A stretch of 48,186 nucleotides of DNA from a virus, in IMG/VR virus record IMGVR_UViG_3300030116_000623, positions 1 through 48,186 of that record; one strand, given 5' to 3'. This document shows positions 26,769 through 48,186 of the stretch, one piece after another. Position 1 is the stretch's first letter; each line of letters opens with the position of its first letter. Below the pieces are notes generated by a model. The model ran no database searches and was not told the DNA's origin. It was given only the letters and a program-made list of their open reading frames with translations. The translations under genes and the position numbers were made by a program.

Positions 26769-26792
26769 AAAAAGGGGCTAGAAAGCCCCTTA
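26769..26792 (-). terminator. Rho-independent terminator
   Basis: Minus strand: AAGGGGCT, TTCT loop, AGCCCCTT, then a T run. It follows the stop codon of the 26810 gene by 18 bases and should end that single-gene transcript. Confidence 0.88.
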
Positions 26793-26809
26793 GGTTATTA
26801 GGTTAAGTT

Positions 26810-27397: not shown

Positions 27398-27401
27398 ACA
27401 A

Positions 27402-27426
27402 AAAAGGCGACCGAAGTCGCCCTTTT
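27402..27426 (-). terminator. Rho-independent terminator
   Basis: Minus strand: GGCGAC, TTCG loop, GTCGCC, then TTTTTT. It lies 16 bases after the stop of the 27442 gene. Confidence 0.9.
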
Positions 27427-27441
27427 GGAACCAGTCGAAGG

Positions 27442-28664: not shown

Positions 28665-28690
28665 AAAAAACCCCCGCACTAGGCGAGGGT
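28665..28690 (-). terminator. Rho-independent terminator
   Basis: Minus strand: CCCTCGC, loop CTAGT, GCGGGGG, then TTTTTT. It follows the stop of the 28701 gene and closes the 29.4-28.7 kb unit before terS. Confidence 0.9.
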
Positions 28691-28700
28691 CTTTCGAATG

Positions 28701-31216: not shown

Positions 31217-31245
31217 AGTATATTTACGAAAAAAGCCAAAGTAAA
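31217..31245 (-). promoter_or_regulatory. TTTACT-family promoter 4
   Basis: Minus strand: TTTACT, 17 bases starting TTGGC, TATACT, then ATATATAG. Best match to the family; drives the 30992 gene and those overlapping after it. Confidence 0.78.
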
Positions 31246-31775: not shown

Positions 31776-32020
31776 TACTCCTCCTTAGCTTTTTGTTGTA
31801 ATTCCCAAGTTCTATTAAAACTTGCTTCAACTAACTCATCAAACAAAGCTACACATTGGTCAACTTTATCGCTAGTTTTGATTGTATGTAAGGATAAGAT
31901 ATTATTTCTTACAGTTTTCCATCGTCTGTAAAACTCTGTATAATCAATATCTTCGTATCTTGGTTCACCAATAAAACTTACATCGACATTAATAGTTTTC
32001 AATTTTGTTTCATTTTCCAT
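31775..32020 (-). CDS. Unknown small helical protein
   Basis: 81 residues from the ATG at 32020, with AGGAG eight bases upstream; the longer frame to 32068 runs over promoter 5. Mostly helical after a short beta start: TEFYRRWKTVRNNILSLHTIKTSDKVDQCVALFDELVEASFNRTWEL. Family not recognised. Confidence 0.58.
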   Translation of the reverse strand: MENETKLKTINVDVSFIGEPRYEDIDYTEFYRRWKTVRNNILSLHTIKTSDKVDQCVALFDELVEASFNRTWELQQKAKEE

Positions 32021-32051
32021 AATTTCTCCTTTCTTATTTTTAACTATATAT

Positions 32052-32080
32052 AGTTTAGTTATCAGCAAAACGAATGTAAA
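32052..32080 (-). promoter_or_regulatory. TTTACT-family promoter 5
   Basis: Minus strand: TTTACA, 17 bases, TAAACT, then ATATATAG. It begins 8 bases below the last helix of the structured RNA region. Confidence 0.7.
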
Positions 32081-32087
32081 GCAAGGC

Positions 32088-32648
32088 GGAGAGCGAGTTA
32101 TGAACAGGGCAAAATAATAAACCCCTCTGGAGACTCGCTCTCCTATCAGGTGGTGAGGTTAGCCATGCTTAGCATTAATACCACCCGAATAAAGTCGGTG
32201 ACGAAACGTGCAGTTGGCTTTTCAGGGACTGCTTGTCGTATACTACCATTCCTGTTCGTCACCTATCTTATATGCCATCAAGTTCTTGCCACGCATCGTA
32301 TTTTAAACTTGTATCTTAGCCTACCCTTATTTGAGGAGCTTATCCCCCTGCTTTGTAGGTAGCATATAATGTTCAGAAGGTAAAGTCAGAACAAGGCAGT
32401 GCCATAACACCTTAAATCCCTCCATCGCCAATGTAGAGGTTCTAGCTCTACGACAATAAGTTAATATTGAACCGCTCTATAGCCCGAGTGTCGTGTGCTG
32501 TAAATTACGACCTTTTACTCCTCACAATCGCAGTATCAATAAAGTCTTCAAACCCAACAATACACTCCTTACAGTGACGGGAAGCCTAACTGTCCCATTA
32601 TGTATTGTCTTTCCTGTTCTTCAGGGCTTCAGGCTGTCCAATGGGTTT
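32088..32648 (-). ncRNA. Candidate large structured non-coding RNA (about 560 nt)
   Basis: This 600-base gap (32081-32669) has no credible gene but many perfect complementary arms. Pairs seen: 32088-32098 with 32133-32143 (11 bp); 32149-32154 with 32180-32185; 32197-32205 with 32255-32263 (9 bp), holding 32210-32214 with 32228-32232; 32268-32275 with 32362-32369 (8 bp), holding 32279-32284 with 32306-32311; 32433-32438 with 32446-32451; 32557-32564 with 32601-32608 (8 bp), holding 32571-32575 with 32589-32593; and 32550-32556 with 32642-32648 as outer helix. 32581-32586 with 32625-32630 would make a pseudoknot. Base composition is richer in GC than flanking genes. Strand is assumed from the neighbours. 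It recalls the large ornate phage RNAs GOLLD and ROOL in size and setting, but I cannot assign it. Confidence 0.7.
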
Positions 32649-32669
32649 CCTAAAGCGACTTTACCAAAA

Positions 32670-32999
32670 TCAATCTTTCTTAAATAATCCGTCCTCCAAT
32701 TTTCCTGTGCGGTCTTTTATTTCATCCCACACGTGTTCTAAACACTCTTCTAACGTCATATTATGTTGTGCTGCTAATACAATCAACACCACTACACAAT
32801 CACCAATACCGTCCATAACTCCTTGTGAATCTTTATAGGCTATAGCTTTGACAGTTTCACCTACTTCTTCCATAAGTTTCATCGTTTGTGCTTGTATATC
32901 GTGATACTTATAAGCATAACCTTTATACTCTGGTGAGTCTATAAGCAGACCACGTTCTTCAGCCCACTGTTCTATTTGTATTATTCTACTTTCTCTCAT
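32670..32999 (-). CDS. MazG-like nucleotide pyrophosphohydrolase
   Basis: 109 residues; ATG at 32999 overlaps the stop of the mini-gene at 32996. The MazG signature is present: KLMEEVGETVKAIAYKD with the EExxE-type metal site, then GVMDGIGDCVVVLIVLAAQ with the paired Asp. MazG enzymes split NTPs or ppGpp to the monophosphate and pyrophosphate; phage versions are thought to alter the host nucleotide or stress state. It is the last gene before the structured RNA. Confidence 0.85.
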   Translation of the reverse strand: MRESRIIQIEQWAEERGLLIDSPEYKGYAYKYHDIQAQTMKLMEEVGETVKAIAYKDSQGVMDGIGDCVVVLIVLAAQHNMTLEECLEHVWDEIKDRTGKLEDGLFKKD

Positions 33000-33127
33000 A
33001 ACTTTCCTCTAAATATATACCTAAGTGCATCAATCGCTTTTTTACTCAGATGTTTAAGATGTTTTGGTATCGGTTCGGGGGTACATTTCTTTTCCCCACT
33101 TTTCGATTTGTTCGGTTGCTGCTTCAT
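32996..33127 (-). CDS. 43-residue basic protein, overlapping gene
   Basis: ATG at 33127 with GAAGGAG six bases upstream, TGA at 32998-32996 overlapping the MazG ATG. The product (KQQPNKSKSGEKKCTPEPIP, then KHLKHLSKKAIDALRYIFRGKL) has a basic arm and a likely amphipathic helix. Its first 74 bases lie in another frame inside the end of the 33054 gene. The strong ribosome site and the ATGA junction support expression. Unknown function. Confidence 0.6.
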   Translation of the reverse strand: MKQQPNKSKSGEKKCTPEPIPKHLKHLSKKAIDALRYIFRGKL

Positions 33128-33484: not shown

Positions 33485-33775
33485 TTAATACCCCTTACTC
33501 ATGTGTTCGTAGCAGTTTTTACCATTTAACGATAAAGGTAAACCACATAAACATTTTTCTTCATTACCATAATAAACATCAAACCATATATCAAAAAAGT
33601 GGCTAACATCAGCAACTTTGATTTTAGTATAAGGCTCGTATATCCTGTGGTAATCCCATATAGCTGAAGATACGAACTTATATGCTCGTAATCTATCTTC
33701 ATCTGACATATCTAAATAGTATGTTAACCTACTGATATGCCGTAATGTTTCGTCTAATATCTTTTGTAAATCCAT
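33485..33775 (-). CDS. Small protein with C-terminal Cys cluster
   Basis: 96 residues; ATG at 33775 after AAAGGAGAATAT. Helical first part (LRHISRLTYYLDMSDEDRLRAYKFVSSAIWDYHRIYEPYTK) and an end with CLCGLPLSLNGKNCYEHM that could bind a metal (C, C, C, H). Family not recognised. Its mRNA begins with a long structured leader (33776-33900). Confidence 0.58.
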   Translation of the reverse strand: MDLQKILDETLRHISRLTYYLDMSDEDRLRAYKFVSSAIWDYHRIYEPYTKIKVADVSHFFDIWFDVYYGNEEKCLCGLPLSLNGKNCYEHMSKGY

Positions 33776-33908
33776 ATATTCTCCTTTCTAAAATTGAGGG
33801 TGTGGCTAAGTGGGTTTTCTTAGGCTTTTGTGCACTGTTGTTTACCATTCACACCCTCGTGTAGCTGCAGTCAAAAATAATAAAATCCCACAGCTAAAAC
33901 TTACTAAT
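33776..33908 (-). promoter_or_regulatory. Structured mRNA leader, riboswitch-like
   Basis: About 130 bases lie between promoter 6 and the 33485 gene. A 9-bp helix pairs 33796-33804 with 33850-33858 and encloses a 5-bp hairpin (33806-33810 with 33819-33823). Upstream in the RNA a 6-bp hairpin pairs 33862-33867 with 33891-33896. Its loop bases 33887-33890 can pair with loop bases 33811-33814, linking the two. The ribosome site AAAGGAG follows directly. No known riboswitch class is recognised. Confidence 0.55.
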
Positions 33909-33937
33909 AGTTTACTTACCATAAACGCCAAAGTAAA
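33909..33937 (-). promoter_or_regulatory. TTTACT-family promoter 6
   Basis: Minus strand: TTTACT, 17 bases starting TTGGCG, TAAACT. Places the start of RNA near 33902, at the beginning of the structured leader. Confidence 0.72.
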
Positions 33938-44038: not shown

Positions 44039-44068
44039 AATATACTTTACTTTTAAATGCAAAGTAAA
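44039..44068 (-). promoter_or_regulatory. TTTACT-family promoter 11
   Basis: Minus strand: TTTACT, 17 bases, GTATAT (TATATT at 18). It should drive the string 44019-38411. Confidence 0.65.
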
Positions 44069-47670: not shown

Positions 47671-48186
47671 TTATAAAGTAACAGAGTCGTCTAGCTGTTC
47701 TTCTTTAACTTCTACTTCACCTGCTCTTGCTGCAGACATGAATGTCTTCGCAATAGTTGCATCTTCGATAGAGGTTTGACCTCCTTGACTAACACTAAAA
47801 CTATTCCAAGTGCCTTTGTCATTAGACATCGTAGTAGTAGTTAAGTTATAAGTATAAGCAAACATCGGGGCTTCTACATACTTACCTTGTGAAGTTTGTA
47901 CTCTAGCCATTCTCATCATCGTTAACCACTTACGTGCTACACTAAGTTGTGTAGATGTAAATGCAATAACTGCTTGTTGAGGTTCAGGGTCTAAAACTAA
48001 TACATAAAACTGTGCAGTCTCGACTATCTCGTTACCTTCTTTTGTAAAAAATCTTCTAGTCTCAGGGTCTTTTTTACATTCGCTAAGTATTGAAACATCA
48101 TGGCTAGCATTTACTAAACCACCACCTTTTTCTCTAGGCACCCATTCAATATACTTTTTAGTATAGGCACACGGAACCACTACAAT
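47671..48186 (-). CDS. Conserved phage protein, 5' end outside window
   Basis: The frame is open to the window edge, so the start is missing; a GTG at 48180 is possible but unsupported. It contains YTKKYIEWVPREKGGGLVN, then AQFYVLVLDPEPQQAVIAFTSTQLSVARKWLTMM and a strongly acidic C-terminus (VKEEQLDDSVTL). The family is common upstream of replication genes in marine phages; the acidic tail recalls single-stranded DNA-binding proteins such as T7 gp2.5. Function is inferred weakly. Confidence 0.65.
   Translation of the reverse strand: MVVVPCAYTKKYIEWVPREKGGGLVNASHDVSILSECKKDPETRRFFTKEGNEIVETAQFYVLVLDPEPQQAVIAFTSTQLSVARKWLTMMRMARVQTSQGKYVEAPMFAYTYNLTTTTMSNDKGTWNSFSVSQGGQTSIEDATIAKTFMSAARAGEVEVKEEQLDDSVTL

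Follow-up and report, generated by a model that had tools for sequence, protein, structure and literature searches.

Results

The stretch of DNA analyzed here, referred to as the window, runs from base 1 to base 48,186 of an IMG/VR virus record that is 60,108 bases long. Most of its genes are carried on the minus strand, and two of these are separated by a gap of 649 nt (32021–32669). Upstream of the gap lies a gene for a mazG-like nucleotide pyrophosphohydrolase (32670..32999, minus strand), which has PHROG and Pfam MazG matches and ends at 32670, and the next minus-strand gene begins with its ATG at 32020. The initial annotation had described a gene-free gap with perfect helices, an outer helix and a composition unlike its flanks, and all of this was borne out. 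GC is 0.44 in 32088–32648, as opposed to 0.33–0.34 in the flanking genes and 0.356 in the whole window, and fewer than 1% of 561-nt segments are equally GC-rich. Perfect or near-perfect helices include the outer helix of module AB (9 bp), the closing stem of module D (9 bp) and the stem of module F (10 bp), in addition to those of module E and others.

On the minus strand the region folds with an MFE of -168.2, compared with -150.7 +/- 6.3 for shuffled sequences (z -2.79; 0/100 shuffles as low), and none of 53 minus-strand segments tiled over the whole window folds equally low. Folding of the plus strand is not significant (z -1.10; 16/100 shuffles as low), and as the excess is confined to the minus strand, we name this as the RNA strand. 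Sub-parts fold even more strongly relative to shuffles, with z -4.09 for C to F and -3.02 for AB, each being significant alone. We conclude that the minus strand of the gap 32021–32669, the strand on which the neighboring genes also lie, encodes a structured RNA, and that the structured element extends over approximately 32088–32665. This strand and extent, the modular make-up described below and a related element at 33796–33896 go beyond what the initial annotation had noticed. No tRNA or tmRNA was found in the 48-kb window by ARAGORN.

For comparison, about 140 loci, many of them overlapping, were fetched from viral contigs, genomes and phage records by means of the mazG protein, two neighboring proteins and DNA patterns (individual loci are denoted by L and a number). 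Searching 50,697 phage records by blastn gave no homologue. A pattern derived from module C gave five matches in 84,980 prokaryote genomes, which look coincidental and are without the C fold. The terminase of the window is 58–59% identical to those of 023Pt_psg01 and DSL-LC04, and 50–52% identical to those of the pelagiphages HTVC023P and HTVC027P. A SAR11-type host appears likely, but no more than likely, as DSL-LC04 is listed under Gammaproteobacteria.

The element is a chain of separate modules, AB, C, D, E and F, and not one fixed giant RNA. Module AB (287 nt, 32379..32665, minus strand; six distinct homologues) is multi-branched, with an outer helix (GGUAAAGUC/GACUUUACC and GAACAGG/CCUUGUUC), two branches and a peripheral hairpin, and A and B co-occur in every case found. 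A small pseudoknot combining GGGA/UCCC with CAGU/ACUG is possible within AB, in letters that are invariant. Across the six sequences, 99.2% of cells are paired, compared with 37–46% in slid controls, and double-sided changes occur in 11 cells against a shuffle mean of 5.2, with no variation in the nine outermost pairs. We regard the covariation in AB as real, but it comes from few sequences (n = 6).

Module C (102 nt, 32268..32369, minus strand; 18 distinct sequences) is a three-way junction built from P1 (UUAUAUGC/GCAUAUAA), P2 (CCUAC/GUAGG) with the P3 hairpin, and P4, with loops that are nearly invariant. Standard pairs make up 99.8% of its cells (slid controls 31–45%), and 32 cells show double-sided changes, a number reached in 0/500 shuffles (mean 13.0). 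The C model R1 scores 124–134 bits and finds a single copy per genome. On the minus strand G-U pairs are present and A-C cells are absent, and in some sequences P4 gains one base on both strands simultaneously, which argues for a helix and not for a reading frame. C is furthermore found behind other genes and near a promoter-like site, namely after the small-terminase gene in L040, L043 and L044, and after an oxygenase-like gene, assigned by reading its translation, in L049. In a second phage group (L089–L100) C and D form a compact, promoter-proximal leader of about 190 nt, with TTTACC-N17-TATATT shortly upstream of C, and similar sites precede C in L040, L044 and L049. The near-invariance of the C loops suggests that they have a specific binding partner.

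Module D (type D1, 67 nt, 32197..32263, minus strand) is a closed pseudoknot, in which the closing stem GGUGACGAA/UUCGUCACC surrounds an H-type pseudoknot (UGGU/GCCA and GCAGU/ACUGC) with the palindromic loop GUAUAC; the evidence consists of covariation in the sister type D', strand pairing, shuffles and a descriptor search. In 11 D' sequences, a closing stem surrounds two crossing helices, both with double-sided changes; one of them shows UA/AU, and the other shows AU/GC as well as UA/AU. Pairing is kept in 97.5% of cells, as opposed to 30–53% in slid controls, and this covariation supports the pseudoknot that had been put forward as a possibility from the window's letters. The plan of D is, in order, closing stem, a, palindrome, b, and a'b' adjoining. 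Among 16 hand-curated D variants, own strands pair at 98–100% and foreign strands at 49–70%, a comparison that serves as illustration and not as proof because the strands were hand-picked for pairing. For each of nine D elements, 0.1–7% of shuffled interiors yield a pseudoknot of the same length or longer, and no more than 0.5% combine an equally good pseudoknot with a palindrome; a tenth element, in the leader of L046, is without a descriptor score. In the whole 48-kb window the descriptor gave only two palindrome-bearing matches, at 32197–32263 and 33796–33858, and it gave none in ten random controls. In the fetched parts of HTVC023P, HTVC027P, 023Pt_psg01 and DSL-LC04 it found no convincing D, the matches being chance-like and many of them lying in the GC-rich DSL-LC04.

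The D loop between a and b is palindromic over 6 bases or more in 11/11 variants, and at least seven different sequences are used (GUAUAC, GACAUGUC, GACUAGUC, UUAUAA, GUGCAC, GCAUGC, CGCACGUGCG, GUGUCGACAC and UUGUGUCGACACAA). The shuffle probability of such a palindrome is 0.05–0.28 per single loop; the test counts related sequences as independent, although independence among the variants is incomplete. As the 8-base palindromes would leave a two-base hairpin loop, which is too tight, they are most simply read as pairing from one molecule to another, and the palindromes suggest that D forms RNA homodimers. Within one genome, the palindromes differ between sites.

Module E (32146..32189, minus strand) is a 44-nt hairpin, whose variants were read from the sequence: the stem is GGGUGGU/ACCACC in some relatives and AGGUGU/ACACCU in others. 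Module F (32088..32143, minus strand) is a long hairpin of 56 nt with a 10-bp outer stem, and its 11 homologues were aligned by hand, as MAFFT gave no alignment. The letters of the outer stem change while pairing is kept (GC/CG/UA at pair 4, AU/UA at pair 5 and GC/AU at pair 8), and two loop motifs are retained, CUCC on the 5' side and UUCAUA on the 3' side. Phage genes contain the complements of both motifs, GGAG as Shine-Dalgarno and UAUGAA in the start region. We considered whether F is antisense to the downstream ribosome site, and rejected this because the order of the two motifs is wrong for one continuous duplex.

Hairpins come easily in AT-rich DNA, and plus-strand ORFs of 64–70 aa overlap the gap, so it has to be weighed whether the structure is due to chance, to the remains of a protein-coding gene or to a signal at the DNA level. 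Compensatory changes in excess of both shuffles and slid controls, the strong z-score and G-U pairs on one strand only all speak against this explanation, and paired single-base insertions are incompatible with a reading frame. Single-base indels in relatives speak against the plus-strand ORFs as an account of the gap, and no conserved reading frame was found in it among the relatives. Covariation and strand-specific folding thus largely refute this explanation, to which we give almost no credence. With covariation in C, D' and AB, and no conserved reading frame, the proposal of a structured RNA holds.

The module load of the same gap varies across relatives from zero to about 600 nt. In L013, L015 and L016 the gap contains the promoter only and no module; F stands alone in L008, G-F is found in L014, C-D-F in L009 and L011, C-D-F-D-E-F in L002, AB-C-D-F in L004 and L007, AB with another hairpin and F in L010, and AB-C-D-E-F in the window. 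The extra module G, of about 77 nt, occurs in L014 from 6325 (GGACUUAGU...ACUAAGUCC) and also in L012 and L047, and its GGAUAAGC and GUGGC motifs are reminiscent of module C. A stretch in L010 resembles a hammerhead, but the CUGAUGA core is missing. The AB of the window is 98.7% identical in L010, which is without C-D-E. L006 and L007 are 99.8–99.9% identical across 5.9 kb and are set apart by one 67-nt D' module. It is cleanly present in L006 (3611–3677) and absent from L007, and in the alignment about 10 bases are common to its two ends; this suggests gain or loss of D' by recombination between closing stems. Such comparisons show that modules are kept, gained, lost or exchanged between near relatives.

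Such quick turnover between near-identical phages could also be expected of decoys in an arms race, in which pseudoknot modules mimic host RNAs, for example a type III antitoxin, and titrate a host defense protein. Type III antitoxin RNAs are H-type pseudoknots arranged as tandem repeats beside a toxN-like gene. The presence of several distinct pseudoknot types side by side in an early region of small genes would suit decoys, but the long closing stem of D is missing from the tandem antitoxin repeats and a toxin partner is not known, why we find this explanation very unlikely.

Promoter-like sites of the form TTTACW-N17-TAAACT, with variants ending in TATATT or TATACT, are found at 44068, 33937, 32080 and 31245. 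The site TTTACA-N17-TAAACT (32052..32080, minus strand) belongs to the next operon, the one with the ATG at 32020, and recurs at 33937, with a variant form at 31245, and TTTACT-N17-TAAACT (33909..33937, minus strand) heads the operon that ends in mazG. Behind the latter lie an F-like leader hairpin, UAGCUG...CAGCUA (33862..33896, minus strand), with UUCAUA at the same place in L006, L014 and L037, and another pseudoknot of the D type, likewise within the 5' leader (33796..33858, minus strand) and composed of GAGGGUGUG/CACACCCUC, UGG/CCA and CUAAG/CUUAG with the palindrome GUGCAC. The descriptor search finds the D plan in this leader in relatives as well as in the window. The first gene behind the F-D leader encodes 96 aa (33485..33775, minus strand), and some relatives have no leader; in L134 and L135 this gene is present without it. 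Based on the positions of the promoter-like sites, the operon ending in mazG seems to open with an F-like hairpin and D (33896–33796) and to close with AB-C-D-E-F (32665–32088), just before the next promoter.

A scan of 31900–33100 found no intrinsic terminator with a GC-rich hairpin and U-tract. In the window F is followed by GCCUUGCUUUAC and no U-tract, and a better U-tract is found at this place in L049. Canonical intrinsic terminators with a GC hairpin and a T-run were seen by eye on the minus strand at 26770–26800, 27400–27440 and 28670–28700. Scanning the fetched parts of HTVC023P, HTVC027P, 023Pt_psg01 and DSL-LC04 for promoter leaders revealed no comparable leader. In another phage group (L077–L082), structured-looking leaders of 185–274 nt lie behind a similar promoter (TTTACTTTGCTAA...TTTATAAT), begin with ATAAGTATGTTTACTAGAACAAG... 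and carry UUCAUA- and CUCC-like motifs, and in L009 a 162-nt leader (from 10147) contains a tandem-duplicated pseudoknot-like unit (CGGTTTAAACGGGAGTCGACCGTAACA...GACTCCC) and is rich in palindromes.

Discussion

The structures described here are well supported, and this set of modular structured RNAs is real and apparently undescribed; what these RNAs do is something we infer. We favor, tentatively and with somewhat less than even confidence, that early phage mRNAs carry them at their ends and junctions as position-independent structures, which would control processing or stability, with D dimerizing. A general function at mRNA ends is favored because elements are found both between operons and at 5' ends, and because the gene downstream of them is not constant. 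The mRNA of the operon 33937–32088 would be transcribed as one RNA with F-D at its start and AB-C-D-E-F at its finish, such that rigid pseudoknots at both ends could govern its processing and keep exonucleases out. Cleavage would take place in the AU-rich linkers (GACUUUAUU), and homodimers formed through the self-complementary D loop could give added stability or ribonucleoprotein assembly. Recombination at the shared closing-stem ends GGUGGU/ACCACC may account for the shuffling of modules. Several findings count against such a role: F lacks a U-tract, unlike the other terminators of the same phage; the conservation of the C loops is extreme, and a pure end-cap needs no specific partner; the D descriptor gives no score to leader L046; and L134 and L135 manage without the leader.

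HK022 put RNA, which is promoter-proximal, modifies RNA polymerase and suppresses termination in cis, offers another model, in which the modules would control transcription in cis as an antiterminator or operator, either by modifying RNA polymerase or by binding a phage regulator. The position of the two-element leaders F-D and C-D close to promoter-like sites would fit a put-type element, and the downstream gene is not constant. On the other hand, the mazG operon of the window has the larger array at its end and not at its start, a canonical terminator is not immediately downstream, and the D stems end before the Shine-Dalgarno without overlapping it, which together make control of this kind unlikely in our judgment.

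The same leader position in some phages raises the question of a ligand-sensing riboswitch with C or D as aptamer. Since no fixed gene lies downstream, and the same gene is leaderless in L134 and L135, a gene-specific riboswitch is disfavored. Also, the array of the window lies behind its operon, no expression platform overlaps the ribosome site and no Rfam match reaches threshold. We regard a riboswitch as highly improbable, even though the loops of the C three-way junction are near-invariant and the D leader scores weakly with the preQ1-II model (16.9 bits, the gathering threshold being 47).

Alternatively, the modules could constitute a trans-acting multimeric noncoding RNA similar to GOLLD and ROOL, joined in one particle by kissing palindromic loops. 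It would be difficult to reconcile such a particle with module content and length that vary widely among near relatives, or with C-D as a 5' leader of only about 190 nt; there is also no Rfam match and no tRNA neighbor, and palindromes that are site-specific in one genome would produce separate homodimers and not one ring. The size in the window, the phage setting and the extensive structure do fit, as do the self-complementary D loops, the near-invariant C loops and the presence of C shortly downstream of a promoter-like site in three kinds of location, and we hold this reading to be possible but doubtful.

The C junction, the D pseudoknot, the AB domain and the F hairpin are covariation-supported motifs absent from Rfam 15, and they are unmentioned in PMC9599517 and PMC12753301; the main texts of this HTVC023P-type genome survey (PMC9599517) and HTVC027P transcriptome paper (PMC12753301) mention neither noncoding RNAs nor promoters. 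The preserved self-complementarity of the D loop leads to the sharp prediction of homodimers, which would bear on whether RNA-only oligomers are widespread in phages. The shuffling of modules among near-identical phages furthermore represents a natural experiment on the assembly of complex RNAs.

Searches of Rfam 15 at gathering and permissive thresholds gave chance-level matches only, and neither Rfam nor ARAGORN gave a match to group I/II introns, tmRNA, RNase P, OLE or HEARO, in keeping with the earlier remark that no defining motif is recognizable; the modules probably represent a new class. GOLLD and ROOL, two large RNAs of phages with no known function, assemble into nanocages (PMC12286853). 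GOLLD is often longer than 800 nt and combines a variable with a conserved part, its 3' region being universally conserved, and ROOL is phage-encoded and contains multiple pseudoknots, with kissing loops in the nanocage (PMC12286853). The initial annotation had compared the region to these two RNAs, and the structure and phage setting of a large ornate RNA hold up; one GOLLD- or ROOL-like molecule does not, as size is not conserved and the modules are separable. Membership in either family is unsupported, the Rfam covariance models giving no match at the gathering threshold or up to E = 10. The array is like GOLLD in being large, ornate and set in a phage, but it has no tRNA neighbor, an association that is frequent but not obligatory for GOLLD, and every part of the array is optional. 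With ROOL it shares a similar size, a pseudoknot and its encoding by a phage, but its modules stand apart and at different genome sites, and its length and domains vary, whereas ROOL is one conserved RNA, about 600 nt in length, that contains several pseudoknots. By analogy, the element may oligomerize as GOLLD and ROOL do.

Among smaller RNAs, the preQ1-II riboswitch is likewise a 5'-leader pseudoknot, but the score of the D leader is below threshold, its context differs and no queuosine gene is seen near it. The phi29-type packaging RNA is a phage RNA that assembles by loop-loop pairing, which for the present element is suggested by the D palindromes; its fold is different, the D loops are self-complementary and not two different loops, and the terminase does not adjoin the array in the window. 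The T4 gene 32 mRNA leader pseudoknot and the T7 intergenic processing hairpins are structured RNAs at phage mRNA ends and junctions near promoters, and the array resembles them in lying at mRNA ends or intergenic junctions near promoters. It differs from them in being a reusable set of modules, equipped with a palindromic loop and tied to no single gene.
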